Below, in pieces: positions 26,227-36,739 of a stretch of 37,338 nt of DNA (within the stretch, counting starts at the first letter, position 1; each line of letters starts with the position of its first letter). The stretch lies in assembly GCA_028282325.1 (NCBI GenBank), contig JANQID010000082.1, forward strand, positions 1 through 37,338, read 5' to 3'. The position numbers and the translations under genes were made by a program. The notes under the pieces were generated by a model. That model searched no databases, was not told the DNA's origin, and saw only the letters and a program-made list of their open reading frames with translations. Origin of the DNA: Chloroflexaceae bacterium (lineage in GTDB: Bacteria > Chloroflexota > Chloroflexia > Chloroflexales > Chloroflexaceae).

Positions 26227-27334
26227 ATGCGTGCGTCTCCTTTGCGTCAGATCGCTTCTGAAAAACCATCACGTATTCGTGCTTAAATACATAGAATCCA
26301 CCGACTAAAGCGCGGTAGCGCCAGAGTTCTTTCTGAGCGCGCTTGCCGCGGGTTTCGTCAAAGTTCTTGACGACAATGCTTTTCAGCAAATATCCGCGCT
26401 GTTGGATCGCCTCCATACAGCGAAAGCCTAGCGGAATCCACTCGCCTTTTACGTACTTGTCGCCGATGACCAGAACCAGATAGCGTTCGGACTGTAGCAA
26501 CGGCGTAATGTTGCTAACCACCTGGCCGAACATGTCCAGGAAGGCTTCGGTGTGCGGCGCATTAGACAGATCGGCTTCCTGCGCCGAAAACTTGATGATG
26601 TCGTGATACGGCGGGTGCAACACCGCCAGTTGCACCGCTTCGACGCCGTGGCTGTGCAGGATTGTCCGCAGATCGGCGACCCGGCTGTCGCCGGCATACA
26701 CCTCCGTCACCGCACCCGCGGCATTCGGTTCACAGGCAATGCGATCGCGCGCCTGCCGGGCTACGTCGTCATTCAGCTCGATGCCGACGCCGTTGCGCCC
26801 CAGCCGCCGGCATTCGATCAGCGTCGTGCCGCTGCCGGCGAAAGCATCGAGCACCCACTCGCCGCGCCGGGTGTAGCGCCGGAGCATCTGGTACGGAATC
26901 TGGGGAATGAAATTGCCCCAGTACCACGCCAGGTGCGCACCGGAATTGTCGCGCCGCGGTTCGATCCAGAGGCTGTCGGTCAGGATGTCGTCGTACTCTT
27001 TCCAGCGCGCCAGATTGATGTCGTTGATCGCGCCGGTGCGGGCGGCCAGCACGCCGGCTCGCAGCCGTCGCAGATAATATTGCGCGCGCTCGCACGTTCG
27101 CGCCGCGAGCATCTGGTCAAACTCGGCGCTCAACACATCGCGGCGCAGTTCGACGGTCTCCGCGTCTGCGTCCTCACGTATTGCAGGATCGGCGACATCC
27201 CATTCACCCGCAAGAATCGCGGCGCGTAGAGAAGTCAACGCATCGCGCAACACCTCCAGTTCATCGAGTGCATCGATCGCTTCAAGCGCATGCGCCAATC
27301 GCGCCCGATGCAACGTAATAACATCGTGCTCCAT
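26213..27334 (-). CDS. DNA methyltransferase (N4/N6 amino type), orphan
   Basis: A 373-residue site-specific DNA methyltransferase. The AdoMet-binding motif is DAFAGSGTTLIECRRLGRNGVGIELN (from residue 163) and the catalytic motif is HPPYHDIIKFS (240-243 HPPY), a known variant of DPPY/SPPY. The order (FxGxG before PPY, no space for a long recognition domain between) is gamma/alpha-like, with a helical N-terminal 160 residues that may supply target recognition. The C-terminus (HEYVMVFQK) matches the end of many such enzymes. The ATG at 27334 has GGGAG 5 nt upstream; a GTG at 27361 is also possible. No restriction nuclease is adjacent. It overlaps the UgpC-like gene by 14 bp. Confidence 0.85.
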   Translation of the reverse strand: MEHDVITLHRARLAHALEAIDALDELEVLRDALTSLRAAILAGEWDVADPAIREDADAETVELRRDVLSAEFDQMLAARTCERAQYYLRRLRAGVLAARTGAINDINLARWKEYDDILTDSLWIEPRRDNSGAHLAWYWGNFIPQIPYQMLRRYTRRGEWVLDAFAGSGTTLIECRRLGRNGVGIELNDDVARQARDRIACEPNAAGAVTEVYAGDSRVADLRTILHSHGVEAVQLAVLHPPYHDIIKFSAQEADLSNAPHTEAFLDMFGQVVSNITPLLQSERYLVLVIGDKYVKGEWIPLGFRCMEAIQQRGYLLKSIVVKNFDETRGKRAQKELWRYRALVGGFYVFKHEYVMVFQKRSDAKETHAYGSD

Positions 27335-27373
27335 ACTGCTCCCGAATCTGGCGCCATCCACGTAGAGATGACA

Positions 27374-27565
27374 GCTACCAAACGATGCTACCCATGCCGC
27401 ATGTCACCCTGAACGGCGCCGCAGGCAGCGTGGATAATGCACATACCGCATGTCACCCTTCCCCTTCGCTTCGCTCAGGGTCAGGGTCTCGGTGTTGGGG
27501 GAATCTGAGATTCTTCGCTGCGCTCAGAATGACCCTATGCGGTGTCTCCCATATTGTTTGGTAGC
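27374..27565 (-). repeat. Dispersed repeat, copy 2 (inverted)
   Basis: This copy is complete and shows the inverted ends clearly: GCTACCAAAC at 27374-27383 and GTTTGGTAGC at 27556-27565. Inside are the family blocks GCATGTCACCCT, CTTCCCCTTCGCTTCGCTCA and TTCTTCGCTGCGCTCAGAAT, here in reverse orientation to copy 1, plus an extra 50-bp block (27412-27445) not in the others. With the flanks it fills the 311-bp gap between the methyltransferase and LacI genes; nothing else is seen there. Confidence 0.85.
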
Positions 27566-27645
27566 GACCGTCGCGAACCGCGAACCGGATCAAGCTTTTC
27601 GACCCGGCTTGCGGAAACGCCCCGGCGAATAAAACACGCCGGCGC

Positions 27646-28716
27646 TCACATACCCGCCGGTTTCACGACCGGCCCGGACTTTGCCGGCGGCGCGGTCGAT
27701 TTCCGCACCATCAGGCGCATCTCCAGCAGCGTATGCGTTGGAACAGCCGCCCGCCCTTCAATCGCATCGATCAAGGTTTGCGCCATCTGCACGCCGAGAG
27801 CGTGGCGCGGTGCGTGCATCGCGGTGAGCGGCGGATGCACATACGCCGCCATCGGCACGTCGTCGAACCCGACCACCGCAACGTCGCGCCCAACTTCCAG
27901 ACCGGCGTCGCGCAACGCATGCATTGCACCAAAGGCCAGTTCATCACTGCACGCCAGCAGCGCCGTCGGCGGCGCGGGCAGTTCAAGCAATTCTTCGGTC
28001 GCGGTGATGCCGGTATCGCGCGCGGTTCCCGCCTCGACCATCAGCGCCGGGTCAATAGCATAGCCTGCCGCCGTCAGCGCATCGACATAGCCCTGACCGG
28101 CCCGATCGCTCGTCGCCAGGTTTGAAGGCGGCATAATCAGCCCGATGCGGCTATGACCCAGACCGAGCAGGTATTGCATTGCGACCCGCGCCCCTGCGCC
28201 GGCATCGACAGCCACGCAGGAAACCGGCGACCCTGCAGGCAACGGCCCGGCGCAGACCAGCGGCACACCGCACTCGTGCAGATAGGACGCTCGATCATCA
28301 TCAACCTGAATATCGAACAGCGCCACCCCATCGACGCGCCCGGTGCGCACCAGTTGCTCAGCCAGGGTCGCCTCGGACTGATCGGCGTTGGCCGTGGCGA
28401 GCAGCAGATAATAGCCCTGCGCCGCCGCGGCTTCGGTCAGCCCGGCGATTATTTCGGCCAGCGTCGGGTTGGAGAGACGAACATCGAGGGCCGGCAGCAT
28501 CAGACCAAGCGTGCGGCTGCGGCTGCGCAGGCTGCGGGCCGCGTAGTTCGGCTGGTAATTCAGATCGGCGATGGCCGCCAACACACGCTGCCGCGTGGCT
28601 TCCGTCACGCCGCCGACATCATTCAGGACATACGACACCGTGGCCGTCGAGACGCCGGCGCGCTCGGCGACATCTTTCATCGTCGCCATAGAAGGCTTTG
28701 GTTGGCGGTGATGCAT
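27646..28716 (-). CDS. LacI-family transcriptional regulator
   Basis: A 356-residue repressor-type regulator. The N-terminal helix-turn-helix is MKDVAERAGVSTATVSYVLN, followed by the hinge NYQPNYAARSLRSRSRTLGLMLP and a periplasmic-binding-protein-like effector domain ending about residue 335 (ACSDELAFGAMHALRDAGLEVGRDVAVVGFDD is diagnostic). The effector is presumably a sugar. The ATG at 28716 is used here; an internal ATG at 28689 would give the more usual short N-terminus, and neither has a good ribosome-binding sequence. A promoter and palindrome directly upstream suggest autoregulation. It may control sugar uptake through the UgpC-like ATPase, but they are in separate units. Confidence 0.92.
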   Translation of the reverse strand: MHHRQPKPSMATMKDVAERAGVSTATVSYVLNDVGGVTEATRQRVLAAIADLNYQPNYAARSLRSRSRTLGLMLPALDVRLSNPTLAEIIAGLTEAAAAQGYYLLLATANADQSEATLAEQLVRTGRVDGVALFDIQVDDDRASYLHECGVPLVCAGPLPAGSPVSCVAVDAGAGARVAMQYLLGLGHSRIGLIMPPSNLATSDRAGQGYVDALTAAGYAIDPALMVEAGTARDTGITATEELLELPAPPTALLACSDELAFGAMHALRDAGLEVGRDVAVVGFDDVPMAAYVHPPLTAMHAPRHALGVQMAQTLIDAIEGRAAVPTHTLLEMRLMVRKSTAPPAKSGPVVKPAGM

Positions 28717-28730
28717 ATTGGCTGGCGCTT

Positions 28731-28746
28731 ACTTAATGGATTAAGT
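28731..28746. promoter_or_regulatory. Putative LacI-family operator
   Basis: ACTTAAT-GG-ATTAAGT is a palindrome with perfect 7-bp arms, 15 bp upstream of the regulator's ATG. It covers the expected transcription start of the promoter at 28749-28777, where a bound repressor would block initiation. Confidence 0.6.
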
Positions 28747-28748
28747 TG

Positions 28749-28777
28749 AGTATAACACCAGCATTTTGCCCGGTCAA
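28749..28777 (-). promoter_or_regulatory. Promoter of the LacI-family gene
   Basis: On the minus strand TTGACC (28777-28772), a 17-bp spacer and TATACT (28754-28749): 5 of 6 matches in each hexamer at ideal spacing. Start of transcription is expected near 28742, inside the palindrome. Confidence 0.7.
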
Positions 28778-28803
28778 GGCTGTGATTGTTGGGAAGATGA
28801 CGC

Positions 28804-29173
28804 ACCAAACCATACTAGATGTACCGCATACGGTCATTCTGAGCGCAGCGAAGAATCCCTGGCTTCGAGACCAAGACCCTTCCCCTTCGCTACGCTCAGG
28901 GTCAGGGTGACATGCTACCAAACAATATGGGAGACACCGCATGGGGTCATTCTGAGCGCAGCGAAGAATCTCAGATTCCCACAATGCCGAGCCCCTTCCC
29001 CTTCGCTACGCTCAGGGTCAGGGTGACATGCTACCAAACAATATGAGAGGCACCGCATACGGTCATTCTGAGCGCAGCGAAGAATCTCAGATTCCCCCAA
29101 CGCCGAGACCCTGCACTCCGCCTGCGGCTCCGTTCAGAGTGACATGCGGCCTGTTCATTATCGTTTGGTAGCG
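28804..29173 (+). repeat. Dispersed repeat, copy 3: three tandem units
   Basis: The block GGTCATTCTGAGCGCAGCGA begins at 28832, 28945 and 29061, giving units of 113 and 116 bp; each continues with family blocks CCCTTCCCCTTCGCTACGCT and CAGGGTGACATG, the third with a diverged right part. ACCAAACAATATG separates the units and the array ends in CGTTTGGTAGC (29163-29173), matching the inverted ends of copy 2. It borders the diversity-generating retroelement. Unit length and absence of unique spacers rule out CRISPR. Confidence 0.88.
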
Positions 29174-29476
29174 TCGGGCGATGGAGACGGCAGCTCGCCA
29201 GATGCGGCGGAAGAGGGGGCCGGGCAGTGAGGACCGAGCGCGCCGGACGGTCCTCCCCCCCCGCGCCTGCCGCGTGCGGTGGGAGCAAGGGTTGGAGGAT
29301 AAAGGCCGCTCAGCCCCGGACGTTCCGGCCTAGTTGGGCCGTACTTGCTCGGAGCTGAACTCGCGCTTCGGCTGAATTGCTCCAGCCGGGCCAAACCCCG
29401 CGCTCGCGCTCATTGTGGCCGCGCCGCCGGCCCGTGAGCCGGGCGGAGTACTGACCGAACCCGTCGGAGCGCGATG
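29174..29476 (-). ncRNA. Structured region downstream of DGR template repeat (likely RNA spacer)
   Basis: About 300 bp that follow the template repeat in transcription direction and contain no credible gene. It is rich in inverted repeats: CCGCC-GGC/GCC-G-GGCGG at 29424-29446, CCGGA-cgt-TCCGG at 29316-29328, and GAGGACCG/CGGTCCTC at 29229-29255 followed by a run of Cs. In the Bordetella phage system the RNA segment 3' of the template is structured and serves for cDNA priming with RT and Avd; by position and structure this stretch is the candidate equivalent. The exact RNA ends cannot be read from sequence. Confidence 0.5.
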
Positions 29477-29548
29477 GACTGGATAACCCGAAATCCCCTG
29501 TTGTTGTTCCTGTTGTTCGGGTTGTTCCTGTTACGGGCGCCGCTGCTT
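29477..29548 (-). repeat. DGR template repeat (TR)
   Basis: This 72-bp sequence, read on the minus strand, aligns without gaps to the last part of the NACHT protein gene (31233-31304). In the protein's frame it is dominated by AAC codons (8 of 24), the usual DGR design because A-to-N changes in AAC give many residues but no stop codons. All 11 differences from the variable repeat are at template adenines; the final 17 bases or more at the 3' end are unchanged, as expected for the region that fixes the homing site. It lies 67 bp downstream of avd. Confidence 0.97.
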
Positions 29549-29549
29549 G

Positions 29550-29572
29550 CCGGCTCCTCCACACAGCCGGCC
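29550..29572 (-). promoter_or_regulatory. Hairpin at the 5' edge of the template repeat
   Basis: GCCGGCT (29550-29556) and AGCCGGC (29566-29572) form a perfect 7-bp stem with a 9-nt loop, beginning one base outside the region of template/variable identity. In the transcript it lies between avd and the template and could mark where cDNA synthesis stops. That role is inference. Confidence 0.4.
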
Positions 29573-29615
29573 CGCTACGGCGGTCACGGAGCGGCCCACG
29601 GACCAATCGGCCCGC

Positions 29616-29972
29616 CTACGATGGCGCGACGCCGCCCTTGCTACGCCACGCGCCCAGCAGCCGCCCGACATGCCCAATCTGTTCGGTCACGTGGGCGTAC
29701 TGGCCGGGGGAAAGCAGATGGAGATCATAGCCGAGCCGCAGATAGAGTCGCACCTTCTGCAGCTCGACGTCGGCCTGCTCCAGGCGCTTCGTCGTCTCGT
29801 CAGTCAGCGTTGCTTCGAAGATGCGCTCCTGGAAGCGCATCGCGGCCCGCACCAGTTCCTGGGTCAGCGTAAAGCGGTATTTGCGCGGCCAACCGCTGGT
29901 GTGCGGCAGAAGCCACTGCAGCAAGTCGTAGGTACGCGTGAAAATCGGCGATTGGCGGGTTGGCGTCGGCAT
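29616..29972 (-). CDS. avd: DGR accessory variability determinant Avd
   Basis: A 118-residue, basic, all-helical protein matching the Avd/bAvd family (four-helix bundle, S23-like), which forms a pentamer that binds the RT and template RNA and is needed for mutagenic cDNA synthesis. Characteristic segments are PIFTRTYDLLQWLLPHTSGWPRKYRFTLTQEL, EATLTDETTKRLEQADVELQKVRLYLRLGYDLHLLS and YAHVTEQIGHVGRLLGAWRS. The start is 6 bp after the RT stop with GAGGG before the ATG, so it is translated with the RT. The template repeat follows directly. Confidence 0.95.
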   Translation of the reverse strand: MPTPTRQSPIFTRTYDLLQWLLPHTSGWPRKYRFTLTQELVRAAMRFQERIFEATLTDETTKRLEQADVELQKVRLYLRLGYDLHLLSPGQYAHVTEQIGHVGRLLGAWRSKGGVAPS

Positions 29973-29978
29973 AGGCCC

Positions 29979-31082
29979 TCACAGTTTGAACTGCACTGCT
30001 GCTTTCGGCCGGCTCCCCCGGCGTAGCAACGGTTTGCGCAAGAGCGAGCGCCGCAGACCGAGGGTGTTACCCTGGCGCGCATGGCCGAGCCAGCCTTGCA
30101 AGCGCCGTCCGATATCGTCGAGCGTACAGCGTCCCGCCGCATACCGCGCACGCAAACGCCGGAAGCGGCGGACGAAGGCCAGCACATTGCGTCGCTTCAA
30201 CCGCAACCGGTACGGAAAGACGTGCCAGCCCAGGAAGGGTAGCCCGGTCTCGACCGGCGCAACCTGGGCCCGATTCTCGTGCAGCGTCAGGCGCAGCGTG
30301 GCCGCAAACGCAATCGCCTGCTCGCGCCAGCGGTGCAGCGTCGGCTTGTCGTCGGCGAAAAGGAGCAGGTCGTCACAGTATCGGACGTAGGCCCGGCAAC
30401 CCAGGTCTTGTTTGATGAACAGATCGAGCGGGTGCAACAGCACATTCGCCCAGAACTGGCTGGTCTGGTTGCCGATCGGCAGGCCGCGCGGGCGGTTAAC
30501 GGCAAAGAGGTCGTCGCCGGGGAAGTAGACCGGGGTATAGACCTCGATCAGTTCACCGGCGCCGCCGGCCAGGATGCGGTCGATCAGGTCGATCAGGCGC
30601 GCGTCGGCGATGTGGCGGGCAAGCAACCCGCGCAGAACGGCGTGGTCGATCGAGGGAAAGAACTCGCGCACATCGAGTTGCAGGGCATAGCGCTGGCCAC
30701 GGGCAAAGTGCTGGGCGCGCTTGAGCGCCGCATGGACGCCCTTCCCCGGTCGCGAGGCATAGCTGTCGTAGATGAAGCGTGACTCCCAGATCGGCTCGAT
30801 CAGCGCACAGAGGGCGTGATGGACGACCCGGTCGCGGAAGGGAGCTGCGCTGATCACCCGTCGTTTGCCGTTTTCCACCGCATAGAAGCGGCGGTAAGCT
30901 CCCGGCTGATAGCTCCCCGTGCGCAATTCGTCGTGCAAGCGCAGCAACTCGTCTTCGTAGCGAAACTCGAAGGCGGCCACGTCGGGGCGGCTGCGCTTGC
31001 CGCGCCGCGCCCGGCGGTAGGCTGCGAGCAGATGCTCGAAGTCGTAGATCTGGTCATAGAGCCGGCGATAGGTCTTTGGCAT
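29979..31082 (-). CDS. DGR reverse transcriptase
   Basis: A 367-residue reverse transcriptase of the diversity-generating retroelement clade. The N-terminus MPKTYRRLYDQIYDFEHLLAAYRRARRGKR is typical of DGR RTs. Polymerase motifs are LDVREFFPSID (first catalytic Asp, 137), GLPIGNQTSQFWANVLLHPLD (the DGR-type GNxxSQ motif, 203-209) and the catalytic YCDD box (235-238) in AYVRYCDDLLLF. The thumb region contains LPFLGWHVFP. There is no maturase, endonuclease or integrase domain. It copies template RNA with errors at adenines, in complex with Avd. The ATG at 31082 fits the family and has GGGAAG upstream; the frame is open to 31124. It follows the NACHT gene by 132 bp. Confidence 0.97.
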   Translation of the reverse strand: MPKTYRRLYDQIYDFEHLLAAYRRARRGKRSRPDVAAFEFRYEDELLRLHDELRTGSYQPGAYRRFYAVENGKRRVISAAPFRDRVVHHALCALIEPIWESRFIYDSYASRPGKGVHAALKRAQHFARGQRYALQLDVREFFPSIDHAVLRGLLARHIADARLIDLIDRILAGGAGELIEVYTPVYFPGDDLFAVNRPRGLPIGNQTSQFWANVLLHPLDLFIKQDLGCRAYVRYCDDLLLFADDKPTLHRWREQAIAFAATLRLTLHENRAQVAPVETGLPFLGWHVFPYRLRLKRRNVLAFVRRFRRLRARYAAGRCTLDDIGRRLQGWLGHARQGNTLGLRRSLLRKPLLRRGSRPKAAVQFKL

Positions 31083-31121
31083 AGGCGCTTCCCAACCCAA
31101 AAAACTCTTTACACACCCCTC

Positions 31122-31156
31122 CAAAAAAACATGCGCGGCTGGGGCTGCGCCCCAGA
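31122..31156 (-). terminator. Hairpin plus T-run between target gene and RT
   Basis: CTGGGGC and GCCCCAG (31139-31145 and 31149-31155) form a perfect 7-bp stem with a 3-nt loop. On the minus strand a run of seven Ts follows about 9 nt later (31129-31123). It lies about 60 bp after the target stop and 40 bp before the RT. It may attenuate transcription so that RT is made at lower level than the receptor, or be the inverted repeat that some DGRs carry downstream of the variable repeat. Confidence 0.45.
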
Positions 31157-31214
31157 CCCCCTTCAGGATTCAGAATCGCAGAAGCCAGAACTCAGAATTC
31201 AGCATCCAGAAGCC

Positions 31215-34200
31215 TTATCTATGAGCGCGCAGGGACTGGATAACCCGAAATCCCCCGCCGTCGTACCTGCTGAACGGGTTGTTCCTGTCACGGGCGCCGC
31301 CGCATAGCTCATCTGTGCTATCGTGAAACCAGGTATAACTTAATAGCGCGATCTCGTTAGGTGTAAAGTCTTTCTGAGGTGCGATAGCAGTCACGCTCTG
31401 GTCATCAGCATATGCCGTAGAAAGCCACTCCAGCACGTTCCCGATCAGATCCTCGGCCCCGCAGACGGCTCGCCCGGCCGGGAAGCAGCCGGCGGGCGAG
31501 GGGGCGCCGACATCGGCGGCAGCGTAGTTGGCCCGCTCCGGATCGGGCGCGGCGTCGACCCAGGGATAGGGGCGCCGGTCGGTGTGGCGGGCCGCGCGTT
31601 CCCATTCGAGCGAGGTCGGCAGGCGAATCTCCCGGTCGGACGGCAGCCAGCCGCGCTTGTGGCCAATGTCGGTGAGCCAGCGACAGTAGGCCGTCGCCTC
31701 GTACCAACTCACGCCGACGACCGGCTGGGCTGGGCTGTTATAGTTTTGATTGTCCCAGAGCTGAGGAAAACGGATCTGCTCCGGCTCACTGCTTACCCAG
31801 CGTTTTCCGCCGGGCAGAATATACCTCCGCCCCTCCTCCGTCCACCAGGGCGCGTCGGGGTCGTAGCCGTCGGGGCCGTTGGCCTCCAGGAAGGCGGCGA
31901 ACTCGGCGTTGCTGACCGGATAACGCCCGATCTTGAAGGCGTACGGCAGTTCGGCCCGCTGCAGCTGCGCCGGATCGAAACGCGGCGGGCGGGGTTCCTC
32001 GTTTGTCACTTCCTCCTCGTCGCCGTCCGCAGCGTCGCCGGCTTCCTCTGCTTCCTCTGCTTCGTCGTCCTCGTCGTCTTCTTCCTTGATCCGCTCGTCG
32101 CCGAACCAGAAGGGGCCGGCGTCGACCTTGCACCAGTAGGGCTCGACCAGATTGTACTCGTCGATGCCGAAGGCGTTCCCGGTTTTGGGGTTGAGCCGGC
32201 GCGGGTCGCCCAGGCGGCCGAGGACGTGCCCGGCCTCAACCCGTGTGGCGATCGGCGTCTCGCCCCGGCGCAGGAGGTTGAGCAGTGCAGTGATCACGCC
32301 CCGCCAAGCACGCTGGGTGGCGCCGTTGCGCCCGATATCGAGCAGGCATTCGCCGGCCAGCACCACCGGCCGCCCACGGGCCTGGGGATCGGTCGGCGCC
32401 TCGAGCAGCAGCAGCAGCAGGCGCGAGGCCTCGCGCTGGGTGGCCGAGGCGATTGCCAGCCGTAACACCTCGCGCCAGCCGGAGTCAACCGCGCGGCGGT
32501 GGATCTCGGCGTCGGGGTCGTCCAGCGTGGCCGACTCGAGCAACCCGCGGGCGGCCAGGTACTCTTCGAAGGTCAGATGCAGAAAGCTGTAGCGCCGGTG
32601 GCCGCGCTCCTGGAGCAGGCCGGTCTCGCGATTGACCAGGCCGATGAAGTCGCGCGCCAGCCGCCCGGCCCGACCCCGCGGCAGCCCATCGGTCTCGACC
32701 AGGGTCTCGGCCAGCCAGCGTTCAAGATCCTGCTCCTCAACGATGCCGCCCGGATTCTCGGCATGGATGCGCAGCGCCGCCGGGCCAAGCAGGTTGACCA
32801 CGAAACGTTCGTCGAGCTTCTCTTCACCCAGGTAGACATCGATCTCGCGCCCGGAGAGCGAACGCGCCCGGTTCCAGGTCTCGGCCAGGGCCTCGACGCA
32901 GAGCCGGTAGAGATCGACGCGGCGGTCGGGCAGACGCGCGCCCTGGTTGTGGATGATCGCCAGGATCGTCAGCAGGAGCGGGTTGCGCGCCAGGTCGGCG
33001 ATATGCCCGCTGCCGAAGATCGCCTGTTCGAGATCGGCGGCGCGGTCGGCGGCCCGCTGCTCCAGCAGCGGATCGGCGCCGGTTCCGCCGGACTGGCCGG
33101 CCCGCTCGAAGGCCCGACTCCAGCGTCCGGCAAAGGCGCGGATCTGCTCGTCATCAAAGGGCGCGATCGTGGCCCGCGCAAACAGTTCGGGGTCGAGCGG
33201 CGCGTCCTCGTAGCCGGCGATGCGGCTGGTGGCCAGAAAGCGGTTGCCGGGGGCGTCCCAGGCGCGGATGAAGTCTTCCAGGCAACGCACCACCGTCAGG
33301 CGATCCTCGCGCACCTCGTCGAGCCCATCGAAGAGCAGCAGCGCCCGCCCGGCCAGCAGCGCCCGCTCGAAGAGCGGCGTATAGTCGGGCTGGTTGCGCC
33401 CGGCGAAGTAGTCGCGCAGATAGTCGAGCGGGGCCAGGTCGCGCCGACCGGGGTCGCCGCGGGCCTCGGCGAAGGCGGCCACCGGAAAGAAGATCGGCAG
33501 CCACTCGTCGCTCAGGCCGATCTCCGCGCCGGCGCGGCCCTTCGCCAGCGCCAGCATAATCACCTTGACCAGCGTGCTCTTGCCTGTGCCGGGGTCGCCC
33601 AGGATCACCAGGAAAGGCGCATCGCGCACCAGAGTTTCCAGGAGGGCGGTCTTCTGAACATCACGGCCGGCGGCATCGCCAACCGCTATATCTCCGTGCC
33701 CCGCCATGTGGATAGCATCGAGTTCACGCAGATCGTCTGGCAGCGCCAGTCGTCCGCCAGTTTTGAGGTCTACCAATCGTCCTACATGTGGGTCATACAC
33801 CCTTCGAGAAGCCGGATCATTCGCACTACTCCCGGCCACCGATCCGCGCAGCGGCACATAGACCTCTTCCAATCGCAGGCGTACAACATTCTGCACCTGA
33901 GCGATCCCGCGGAAGTCGAGGGTGGCGTAGGTTTTGGCGATGAAATCGTGGTAACTCCGGAAAAGCGCATCGAGGTCGGGCGGGGGCGTTGCCGGCAGGC
34001 TGTAGGTCGTCTGGTTGCCCAGCACGATCGTGATCGGCGCATTGCGGACGCTAGCGCCATCGACGGCCTGAATGCCGGCCTGGATGCGCGGCAGGTCGTT
34101 CATATCCTGCAACAGCGCCTCGATCCGGCGCAGGCTCGCGGCGCTATCGGCAGTGCTGGCGGCGGTAGCACGGGCGGCGGCGAGGGCATCCAGCTCGGCG

Positions 34201-34700
34201 CGGTCCAACACGATCTCGCGCAGATTATCGTCCTTCAGCAGTTCAGCCGGGAGGAAGGCCTGGAACAACATCTGCAACACCGGCTGCACCTCGTTCCAGT
34301 GCGGTGGTTGCTCGCGGCGCAGCAGGGCGGCGAAGCGCAAGTTGCGGCGATACTCGTCGAGCACCCGACCGAGATCGGGCGTGTGCCGGAAGAGCAACTC
34401 TTCGACGGCGACGGCCCGAAAGCTGCGACCTTCGGGGCTGTCGTCGGTTAGCAAACCAAGCGCCCGCTCGACCCACTCGGGTCGTCGGTCGGCGCTCCGG
34501 CGCAACTCGGCGACGGCGTCGCGCACCGCCTGATCGAAGGCCGCGGCCATCTTGCGGCGCTTGTCCAAGCCGGCCCAGGCCGCCAGCTTGGCCTTCGCCG
34601 CAGCCCAGACATCGTCGCCGACGGCTTCGGCAATCCCGCCGGCGATAGCGCCGGCAGCGGCGGTGATTGTAGCGAGGAGGGCAGTGGTGAGTGGTTCCAT
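31215..34700 (-). CDS. DGR target protein: NACHT-type NTPase with C-terminal FGE/C-type-lectin variable domain
   Basis: A 1161-residue protein. An N-terminal helical region (with an Ala/Gly-rich hydrophobic helix at about 4-26) of unknown role leads to a NACHT-type STAND NTPase: Walker A GDPGTGKST (368-376), Walker B LLLFDGLDE (454-462), FLATSRIAGYED, LARNPLLLTILAIIHN and YSFLHLTFEEYLAARGLL. A helical, HEAT-like stretch follows (about 725-840). The C-terminus (from about 855) is a formylglycine-generating-enzyme/C-type-lectin fold: AGPFWFGDE, FKIGRYPVSNAEFAAFL, QPVVGVSWYEATAYCRWL, LPTSLEWERAARH and DLIGNVLEWLSTAY, ending in GGFRVIQS. A 30-residue Asp/Glu-rich insert (about 872-903) interrupts it. 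Residues 1133-1156 are the diversified segment. ATG at 34700 has AGGA upstream; an ATG at 34748 is possible. Confidence 0.95.
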   Translation of the reverse strand: MEPLTTALLATITAAAGAIAGGIAEAVGDDVWAAAKAKLAAWAGLDKRRKMAAAFDQAVRDAVAELRRSADRRPEWVERALGLLTDDSPEGRSFRAVAVEELLFRHTPDLGRVLDEYRRNLRFAALLRREQPPHWNEVQPVLQMLFQAFLPAELLKDDNLREIVLDRAELDALAAARATAASTADSAASLRRIEALLQDMNDLPRIQAGIQAVDGASVRNAPITIVLGNQTTYSLPATPPPDLDALFRSYHDFIAKTYATLDFRGIAQVQNVVRLRLEEVYVPLRGSVAGSSANDPASRRVYDPHVGRLVDLKTGGRLALPDDLRELDAIHMAGHGDIAVGDAAGRDVQKTALLETLVRDAPFLVILGDPGTGKSTLVKVIMLALAKGRAGAEIGLSDEWLPIFFPVAAFAEARGDPGRRDLAPLDYLRDYFAGRNQPDYTPLFERALLAGRALLLFDGLDEVREDRLTVVRCLEDFIRAWDAPGNRFLATSRIAGYEDAPLDPELFARATIAPFDDEQIRAFAGRWSRAFERAGQSGGTGADPLLEQRAADRAADLEQAIFGSGHIADLARNPLLLTILAIIHNQGARLPDRRVDLYRLCVEALAETWNRARSLSGREIDVYLGEEKLDERFVVNLLGPAALRIHAENPGGIVEEQDLERWLAETLVETDGLPRGRAGRLARDFIGLVNRETGLLQERGHRRYSFLHLTFEEYLAARGLLESATLDDPDAEIHRRAVDSGWREVLRLAIASATQREASRLLLLLLEAPTDPQARGRPVVLAGECLLDIGRNGATQRAWRGVITALLNLLRRGETPIATRVEAGHVLGRLGDPRRLNPKTGNAFGIDEYNLVEPYWCKVDAGPFWFGDERIKEEDDEDDEAEEAEEAGDAADGDEEEVTNEEPRPPRFDPAQLQRAELPYAFKIGRYPVSNAEFAAFLEANGPDGYDPDAPWWTEEGRRYILPGGKRWVSSEPEQIRFPQLWDNQNYNSPAQPVVGVSWYEATAYCRWLTDIGHKRGWLPSDREIRLPTSLEWERAARHTDRRPYPWVDAAPDPERANYAAADVGAPSPAGCFPAGRAVCGAEDLIGNVLEWLSTAYADDQSVTAIAPQKDFTPNEIALLSYTWFHDSTDELCGGARDRNNPFSRYDGGGFRVIQSLRAHR
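31233..31304 (-). repeat. DGR variable repeat (VR)
   Basis: The 72 bp encode residues 1133-1156 of the target protein. Compared with the template, 11 of 24 template adenines are changed: seven to G and four to T on the coding strand. Template AAC codons have become GAC, TTC, AGC, TAC, GAC and GGC, two AGC codons became TGC and GGC, and AGG became GGG. No other base differs. The unchanged 3' part encodes GFRVIQS, the structural end of the lectin-type fold. The gene continues only six codons past the repeat. Confidence 0.97.
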
Positions 34701-35051
34701 CAGGTCAGTCCTGGCCAGCTTCTGAGCGAAAGAGGAAGCAATGTTCATCAAGGGGCAGGCGAGATGTTCCGGCTATGGGTTCGGCGGCGGCGATATGTTT
34801 GGCTGATATTTCGCGCTGCTTAAACGGTAAAGTAGTAGCCTTCTAACCCGCAAGATCTCTCAATATCATTGCAGCCAACGCTTCCGCGACGGGATTCTTG
34901 ACTGCTAGCGCCAGCCGTAGTATATCACGCTGAAATGCAGGTTACAAGCTTCAATTGTGATCAGAGAACGCATATTACAGAGTGACACGGCTGAACGTAC
35001 GGTCTGCCAACATAACGAGAGGCATCGGCAAGATTCGGATGAACGGCGCGA
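34701..35051 (-). other. Upstream region of the DGR operon, 351 bp
   Basis: This contains the leader and promoter of the DGR operon (separate entry) and is less GC-rich than its neighbours. If transcription starts near 34911, the untranslated leader is about 210 nt, long enough to hold regulatory structure, but I see no riboswitch or strong stem. No gene is supported here. Confidence 0.5.
34919..34947 (-). promoter_or_regulatory. Candidate promoter of the DGR operon
   Basis: On the minus strand TTGTAA (34947-34942, 4 of 6), a 17-bp spacer and TATACT (34924-34919, 5 of 6). It is the best promoter-like pair upstream of the NACHT gene. Confidence 0.45.
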
Positions 35052-35255
35052 TCACGCCCGCAGCAGCGCCGCCTCGGTTCGCCGGGAGCCGATCAGCGCC
35101 GCGCCCAGGCCGATCACGACGAGGGTGATCATGCCCGCTCACGCCGCATGCGTTTGAAACCGGTAGTCGCGCCCGCCGAACAGATCCACGGCGACCAGCG
35201 ACGAGGTCGCGCAGAGCGCCGAGTCGAGCGTCGAGCTCAGGCCGGACAGCAGCAT
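35052..35255 (-). pseudogene. Relic of a sodium:solute symporter
   Basis: The minus-strand frame reads MLLSGLSSTLDSALCATSSLVAVDLFGG, which resembles the SSS-family segment LLSTADSALLAASSLITRDIY, then meets a stop at 35139-35141. In the same frame beyond it, MITLVVIGLGAALIGSRRTEAALLRA looks like the following membrane span, ending at a second stop (35052-35054). Nothing before or after the 200-bp stretch matches the rest of a 500-residue transporter. It is therefore a decayed fragment. The match is short and by eye, so moderate confidence. Confidence 0.5.
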
Positions 35256-35287
35256 CACGCTAATTTGATATATCGAACGTTTCACAA

Positions 35288-36739
35288 TCAAATCTCTCGG
35301 TTCGCCGAGATGCGACGACGCAACTTGAACATCAAAGCCCATCCCAGCACGACCGTTTCCAGGGCCGAGGTGACAGCAAACGCAACCGGGATCGCCAGCA
35401 CATCAAAGCGCTCCAGCAGCGGCGGGATCAGCGCGATACGGCCCGCCAACTGGAGCGTATTCGTCAACAATGGCGTGCGCGTATCATGCAGGGCGATCAA
35501 GCCGCGTGTGAGCACTTCGGTGGCGATGTAGGCCGGAAGGGCGACCGCGTAAGCCGCCAGCAGCGTATAGGTGAGCGACCCGGCAGCCGCATCGAAGCGA
35601 CCGCGCTCCAGGATCAGCGCAATCGTCGGGCGTCCCAGCACAAGAATCGCCAGCGTGGCCAAAAAGCCAAGCAGCAGAGTCACGCCCAGCGTCTGGAGCA
35701 TAATCCGGCGCATATCGCGCCAGCGGGCGGCGGCGGCATAGGCTGCAACGCGCGGAAAAGCCGCCTGTCCAATCGCGATGCCCAGCAAACGGATCGGCAG
35801 CCCGATGACCAGAAACGCGTTGTGAACCGCCGACAGGCCCATAAGGCTGCGGGACAACGAGGCATAAGCGGTATCGACAATGCCGCCCGCATAGTTGACC
35901 GCCCCGGAGAGTCCGTTGGGAATCAGCAGGCGAATGACTTCACGCAGCCGCCGGTCGGCGAGATTCCAGACCGGACGATAGCGCCAGCGGTTGCGCCATA
36001 GACCCGGCGCGAGTACGGCGACTTGCAACACGGCATCACCGACCGCGCCGACAGCGGGACCGTAGATGCCAACGCCTGGCACAAACATTGCCGCGACGAT
36101 GCCGCTAATCAGCGTAATGTTGCGAATAGCAATCGAAATCGCCGGCAGGACAAACTGATTGCGACTGATGAGCAGCGCCTCCGCAACGCCGGTCGCCACG
36201 GCAAGCGCCAGCTCAAACAGCATCAATCGGGTCAGGATAATCGTCAGGCGGCTGGTTTCGGCATCGAAGCCGGGGGCCAGCAGGAAATGCACAAACTGGG
36301 GAGCCAGCAGCGCTCCCAATGCAATGGTGATCGCCGCCGTGGTCAGAAGGACGGTCAGTGTCAGGTTGGCCAGGCGATGCATCGCTGCTTCGCCTTCGGC
36401 GCGAGCGACGCCGAGCAAAACCGGCACCATCGCGTTGGCCAACGTACCGCCGGCAATCAGCGTTGCGATGGTATCGGGCAAACGAAACGCGGCATAGTAG
36501 GCGTTCGCCTCGACGCCGGTACCAAACTGGGCGTTGAATAGTACCTGACGCACAACGCCCAGCGCCGCTGAAATTAGAAACGCGACTATCAGTAGCGCCG
36601 AGCCTTCGGTAATGCTCGACTCGCGGGTGATCAGATCGGCGAAGCGCAGCCGCAGCAGCCTCGGCAAACGCGGTGCACGAGCGCCGCCGAGTGAAGACGG
36701 AGGAGACGGGTTGGACGGGCCTTGTTCGGATTCAGTCAC
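35288..36739 (-). CDS. murJ: MurJ/MviN-family lipid II flippase
   Basis: A 483-residue membrane protein of the MOP superfamily with about 14 spans. A disordered Ser/Pro-rich N-terminus precedes SALLIVAFLISAALGVVRQVLFNAQFGTGVEANAYYAAFRLPDTIATLIAGGTLANAMVPVL, a strong MurJ signature; other marks are GLPIRLLGIAIGQAAFPRVA and DTRTPLLTNTLQLAGRI. MurJ flips the peptidoglycan precursor lipid II; paralogues also export other lipid-linked sugars, so which one this is remains open. The start is a GTG with weak ribosome-binding sequence. The gene is monocistronic as far as can be seen. Confidence 0.87.
   Translation of the reverse strand: MTESEQGPSNPSPPSSLGGARAPRLPRLLRLRFADLITRESSITEGSALLIVAFLISAALGVVRQVLFNAQFGTGVEANAYYAAFRLPDTIATLIAGGTLANAMVPVLLGVARAEGEAAMHRLANLTLTVLLTTAAITIALGALLAPQFVHFLLAPGFDAETSRLTIILTRLMLFELALAVATGVAEALLISRNQFVLPAISIAIRNITLISGIVAAMFVPGVGIYGPAVGAVGDAVLQVAVLAPGLWRNRWRYRPVWNLADRRLREVIRLLIPNGLSGAVNYAGGIVDTAYASLSRSLMGLSAVHNAFLVIGLPIRLLGIAIGQAAFPRVAAYAAAARWRDMRRIMLQTLGVTLLLGFLATLAILVLGRPTIALILERGRFDAAAGSLTYTLLAAYAVALPAYIATEVLTRGLIALHDTRTPLLTNTLQLAGRIALIPPLLERFDVLAIPVAFAVTSALETVVLGWALMFKLRRRISANREI

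Follow-up and report, generated by a model that had tools for sequence, protein, structure and literature searches.

How cDNA enters the variable repeat (VR) of the target gene is the least understood step in the action of diversity-generating retroelements (DGRs), and the cis-requirements that are known come mostly from one phage. The DGR analysed here raises the question of what marks such a target in a bacterial chromosome. It lies in a stretch of 37,338 nucleotides (hereafter the window), which is a single contig from the 4.6-Mb genome of a Chloroflexaceae bacterium, and its neighbours are ordinary chromosomal genes (an Mrp antiporter, symporters, ABC transporters and MurJ). The element occupies the minus strand; it begins with the target gene, the 3' end of which holds VR, and continues with the reverse transcriptase (RT), Avd and the template repeat (TR), as listed in Table 1. 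Judged by RT, its closest relatives are those of Candidatus Viridilinea mediisalina, Chloroflexales bacterium ZM16-3 and other Chloroflexaceae/Oscillochloridaceae. The core of this DGR is ordinary for Chloroflexales, and its VR is flanked on both sides by an inverted repeat, below called the bracket, which is shared across the order. The genomes used for comparison were sampled as one assembly per species, and an Rfam search of positions 28700-35400 gave no match.

Table 1. Features of the DGR and its target gene in the window
Feature	Position	Strand	Details
Target gene	31215..34700	-	1161 aa from ATG 34700; N-terminal helical domain, NACHT, FGE/C-lectin with VR at end
NACHT NTPase domain	33117..33611	-	P-loop GDPGTGKST, Walker B LLLFDGLDEV; Pfam PF05729, E 4e-14
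FGE-sulfatase (C-type-lectin-type) domain	31239..31970	-	Pfam PF03781, E 4e-35; model
Upstream bracket arm AAGACTTTACA	31362..31372	-	Within target gene
VR, 71-bp core	31233..31303	-	TR/VR alignment
Downstream bracket arm AACTCTTTACA	31103..31113	+	TGTAAAGAGTT on gene strand; between VR and RT
DGR reverse transcriptase	29979..31082	-	367 aa from ATG 31082; upstream TTG 31124 possible
Avd accessory protein	29616..29972	-	118 aa; NF033474 and PF22296 above cut-off
TR, 71-bp core	29476..29546	-	No adenine changed in 3' block GGGGATTTCGGGTTATCCAGTCC (IMH*-like)
Structured non-coding RNA	29308..29489	-	From TR end onward; covariation and fold z

An earlier note, made from the sequence of the window alone, had described a complete DGR with target, RT, Avd, TR and VR, and all of these parts passed independent tests. 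The RT is intact and carries the motifs GNQTSQ and YCDD. Among solved structures, the closest to it is that of the DGR RT 8ub7 (E 2.7e-45), ahead by 21 orders of magnitude of the next match, a group II intron RT (4.6e-24), and the PHROG family 'Reverse transcriptase' matches it with an E of 5.5e-120. The NCBIfam models of the group II intron maturase (TIGR04416) and of the retron St85 scored it at 136.7 bits and 44, below their cut-offs of 300 and 235, respectively. The Avd protein was recognised by NCBIfam NF033474, 'diversity-generating retroelement protein Avd' (90.5 bits, cut-off 80), and by Pfam bAvd (PF22296), and it matches bAvd of PDB 4dwl. The assignment of both proteins to the DGR type is upheld by 8ub7 and PHROG for RT and by NF033474 and PF22296 for Avd, and both reading frames are intact.

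The start of the target gene given in Table 1 fits a 64%-identical N-terminus in genome G004; ATG 34748 and TTG 34751 are the alternatives. A model of the FGE domain built from 35 sequences had a pLDDT of 84.5 and its fold search led to FGE/EgtB folds, solved DGR variable proteins being absent among the best 50 matches listed. Pfam, the model and the fold search place the VR in a C-lectin-type ligand-binding fold at the C-terminus, and the target combines this variable C-terminal sensor with a NACHT domain. Its first 200 residues form a helical domain, and no Pfam or PDB fold match to the N-terminus was found that would identify an effector; PADLOC returned only weak P-loop matches for the protein. 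We did not assign the target to the antiviral STAND or bacterial NACHT defence proteins, as it has no recognisable N-terminal effector. N-terminal domains like that of the target head other large family proteins, some of them on contigs without a DGR RT.

Alignment of the 71-bp cores of TR and VR revealed 10 mismatches, all of them at TR adenines, for which the hypergeometric p is 2.5e-6 (23 adenines in 71), and all 12 differences fell on TR adenines when the comparison was stretched to about 75 bp. The statement that TR and VR differ only at template adenines is thus borne out. A search of the 4.6-Mb assembly gave no second VR that belongs to this TR. The 3' constant block consists of 23 nt identical in TR and VR, followed by a TR A to VR C difference (positions 29475 and 31232, respectively). 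In 32 of 53 TR/VR pairs the first difference 3' of the constant block is likewise TR A to VR C; this difference is nearly always uniform within a lineage, TR A to VR G prevailing in the lineage that resembles the DGR on contig C54 of the same genome (see below). Judging from these pairs, the boundary difference is a fixed one, like that between IMH* and IMH. The possibility that the short TR (71-81 bp) is missing its 5' half was raised because WFHDST before the VR looks diversified; no truncation is claimed, since the TRs of close relatives are short as well and Viridilinea has kept DSTDELC. The VR stop codon is followed, in the window (31160-31230) as in the majority of Chloroflexota loci, by TTCTGAA-like, T-rich repeats with a length of about 7-8 nt, and the G+C content is about 43-50% on either side of the VR and about 67% in it.

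The adenines of the mutable stretch of TR are largely kept in four related elements, the VRs of which differ from the VR of the window at 12-19 TR-adenine positions and at 3-8 positions elsewhere. From these comparisons between related elements we infer, with good support, that the DGR is probably active, in agreement with the earlier view that the element appears functional: the TR adenines are kept and the related VRs differ mainly at TR-adenine positions. It is improbable that the DGR is intact in sequence but silent, recently frozen with a VR that no longer changes. Signs of DGR decay are frequent here: an RT remnant lies on contig C73 of the window's genome, another remnant adjoins the orthologous target in Oscillochloris sp. 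ZM17-4, and no Avd or TR was found near the RT of ZM16-3 (L026/L144). In the window, however, all parts are intact, including the spacer RNA and both arms of the bracket, and zero non-adenine differences have accumulated between TR and VR in 71 bp.

The order target-RT-avd-TR, which had been pointed out as differing from that of the Bordetella phage, is as stated but not remarkable, being common in Chloroflexota. RT-Avd-TR was the order in all 43 related loci where all three were located, and 34 of these have the exact VR-RT-Avd-TR layout; the only locus to deviate belongs to a Bacillota element, in which no Avd was detected. The claim that TR stands at the very end of the unit did not hold, as TR is followed by about 180 nt of covarying structured RNA. 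A region of 170-200 nt 3' of TR is conserved among six related elements, and RNAalifold predicted 57 pairs for it, 23 of which have two-sided changes. The corresponding counts in the controls were 9.0 +/- 1.8 in column shuffles and 2-5 with the partner slid; the structure was derived from the same sequences, which biases the comparison with the slid versions in its favour and does not likewise affect that with the shuffles. The fold z of the window's own sequence in this region is -4.2. The BPP-1 spacer, which follows TR, serves both to recruit RT-Avd and to prime the synthesis of cDNA (PMC12875486), and by analogy the RNA after TR is likely to be the counterpart of this spacer. Since this RNA covaries and the order avd-TR-spacer is retained, only the RT has moved relative to Bordetella; that is, avd-TR-spacer stays one unit even when the RT moves. 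Just past the end of the element (28830-29150) there is an intergenic repeat in three copies, in which GGTCATTCTGAGCGCAGCGAAGAATC is paired with CTTCGCTACGCTCAGGGTCAGGGTGACATG.

The earlier description of the surroundings of the VR proved incomplete, for an inverted repeat that brackets it had gone unmentioned. The VR is flanked by inverted copies of AANNCTTTACA, and CTTTACAC occurs twice in the whole 37-kb window (expected 0.27), both copies flanking the VR in mirror orientation. In a ranking of every 7-mer from the sequences flanking 47 VRs, CTTTACA was the top upstream 7-mer, setting aside the k-mers that encode a conserved VWEW peptide, and its reverse complement was tied first among the downstream 7-mers. 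Each was present at 13 of the 47 VRs and at 0 of 47 in two control regions, and together they lead the joint inverted count in the VR flanks.

We then scanned 82 Chloroflexales genomes for CTTTACA-gap-TGTAAAG, using three gap windows picked from the ranked loci. The 3' ends of FGE genes accounted for 47 of the 81 classified matches, a count in which related loci are not independent and for which the gap windows had been set after some loci were seen, about 35 of the 47 having had no part in the choice. The gaps at the FGE matches were 117-119, 192-206 and 236-253, and the stop codon of the FGE gene lies within the bracket or a few bases from its end in all but one of the 47. AA at -4/-3, outside the query, was found in 93 of 94 arms at the FGE matches, compared with 12 of 68 elsewhere, and the full site is therefore AANNCTTTACA. 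In the window's own genome, the VR of the window has the sole pair at these spacings. Two FGE genes of this genome look like decayed targets: one on C73, at about 26523-30580 together with the RT remnant, keeps only the upstream arm, and one on C140 (19643-20258) keeps only the downstream arm. A role of AANNCTTTACA as a general host-wide site was considered and dropped; it is weakly over-represented in the genome (28 versus 18 for the reversed pattern).

The bracket was found in three separated RT clades, all of Chloroflexales, and the motif was absent from all 55 TR flanks. Neither the bracket nor an equivalent of it was found in the tested elements of Ktedonobacterales, Anaerolineae or the C54 DGR lineage; the absence of the bracket from these other working-looking DGRs means that it is no general requirement. 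In the open-access literature we came across no account of such a bracket. The bracket looks like a lineage-specific target-site element that is probably bound by protein. In a tentative but plausible reading, Chloroflexales DGR targets would be defined by inverted AANNCTTTACA...VR...TGTAAAGNNTT sites that lie about 118, 195 or 248 nt apart, and a protein of the host or the element would recognise these sites and aid cDNA integration, three separate RT lineages being served.

The bracket might instead act by base pairing of its arms, which would hold the VR in a large DNA stem-loop like a displaced BPP-1 hairpin. BPP-1 can dispense with the sequence upstream of VR, but a hairpin immediately downstream is important (PMC3240598), and this stem-loop is believed to hold the target open (PMC12875486). 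The arms are always inverted, and those of the window pair in both the minimum-energy and the centroid single-strand DNA folds. However, this fold is unexceptional (z -1.3), the NN positions and the flanks match between arms no better than in shuffles, the motif sequence is nearly fixed, and the degenerate arms (TGTCAAG in L027 and L031, CCTTACA in L079) are uncompensated. Protein recognition is favoured over base pairing, which we consider unlikely, because of the host-linked distribution, the lack of arm co-variation and the uncompensated degenerate arms.

That the bracket is a by-product, namely of a conserved K-x-F-T peptide upstream and of an RT promoter or terminator downstream, is more doubtful still. 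While 37 of the 47 upstream arms read K/E-x-F-T and the downstream arm of the window directly precedes RT, the other 10 arms use another frame and read E-x-L-Y, and a 10-position inverted match at fixed spacing would be unexpected. Because the upstream arms are read in two frames and the downstream arm is mostly non-coding, the comparison indicates that the bracket is constrained as DNA. The downstream arm also follows VRs without an RT behind them (L072 and L067), so the bracket is not an RT promoter; no consistent -10 element was seen by eye at the expected distance. Least probable is that the arms are the terminal repeats of a mobile cassette that shuttles VR segments between genes. Cassette and target have been re-paired relative to Viridilinea and two targets in the window's genome share identical sequence 5' of VR, as such a cassette would allow, but the similarity of paralogous targets continues through the arms and does not stop there (L072, L067), and no target-site duplications were seen by eye; given the paralogue alignments, we rejected such ends. 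Being conserved and recognisable from sequence alone, the bracket offers a way to approach target recognition and a possible host factor, and targets far from their RT can be located with it as well.

Taken as a whole, the locus is very probably a chromosomal DGR of Chloroflexales type that introduces variation into the ligand-binding tip at the C-terminus of a receptor-like NACHT/STAND protein. By analogy with BPP-1, the avd-TR-spacer transcript would fold, RT-Avd would copy TR with errors at adenines, and the cDNA would replace VR, guided by the constant 3' block and the boundary difference. Less certainly, the inverted AANNCTTTACA sites, most likely bound by protein, would mark or open the VR for cDNA integration in Chloroflexales. 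The domains and the published relatives suggest that the FGE/C-lectin tip may sense a ligand, perhaps derived from an invader, and that the ligand-bound tip may trigger the NACHT module and the N-terminal helical domain. A role outside defence, such as neighbour recognition or the tuning of signalling, is a less probable alternative, although one to be taken seriously. The ligands of FGE/C-lectin folds are diverse, the target has no gene for a peptidase, nuclease or other effector next to it, and cyanobacterial DGRs have been suggested to tune regulatory proteins (PMC7517822). On the other side, an anti-phage function is established for NACHT proteins that have a variable sensor at the C-terminus, and DGR-NACHT pairs have been put forward as hypothetical antigen sensors (PMC10907252).

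The element resembles the BPP-1 DGR (mtd-avd-TR-spacer-brt) in its DGR RT and Avd, the adenine-specific TR/VR change, the VR at the C-terminus of a C-lectin-fold protein and the order avd-TR-structured RNA. It differs from BPP-1 in that RT precedes avd rather than following the spacer, the target is a cellular NACHT-FGE protein, and the VR has inverted AANNCTTTACA sites on both sides. A GC-rich hairpin 4-34 bp after VR is a phage-type feature, the requirement for which is known only from phage elements; by eye there is none at this distance in the window, the first clear one being CTGGGGCGCAGCCCCAG, about 76 nt away. NACHT/CLec DGR targets have been described in multicellular bacteria, with filamentous Chloroflexi among the named hosts (Dore et al. 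2024, PMC10907252). Like DGR 3 and 6 (clade 5D) of Thiohalocapsa PB-PSB1 in that work, the target has a central STAND NTPase (NACHT or nSTAND1) and a DGR-diversified C-terminal FGE/CLec domain; unlike them, the window has one target and no adjoining peptidase effector, and the bracket is undescribed there. Sensor diversification by DGRs is thus already known (PMC10907252), and the bracket is a lineage-specific variation worth testing.

The DGR of Viridilinea mediisalina (L025) has an RT 82% and an Avd 86% identical to those of the window, a TR with 66 of 71 bases in common, the same order, a covarying RNA after TR, and the upstream arm at one of its two VRs. In contrast, the downstream arm is degenerate or missing, and its two VR targets each have 33-37% protein identity to the target of the window. 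With RT and Avd at 82-86% and targets at 33-37%, cassette and target are not strictly co-inherited. In ZM16-3, an RT 84% identical to that of the window lies among four NACHT-FGE genes, all four of which have the upstream motif near the 3' end. In Oscillochloris sp. ZM17-4 (L064, L139; G032:C112), a protein with an N-terminus 49% identical to that of the window target adjoins the RT remnant, which comprises 31 residues and is 94% identical to the RT of the window. A bracketed FGE gene end is also present in a complete single-contig genome (L188, G029:C1 1245988-1246193), for which no close DGR RT came up in the RT search, and is possibly a frozen target. The window's own genome contains a second, distinct DGR on C54 (L065), with an RT 53% identical, one VR beside this RT and another on a different contig. 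C54 and C60 (1-260) end in the same sequence just 5' of VR, which accounts for the assembly breaks there; C53 contains it as well (84569-84646), and this sharing suggests gene conversion between targets.
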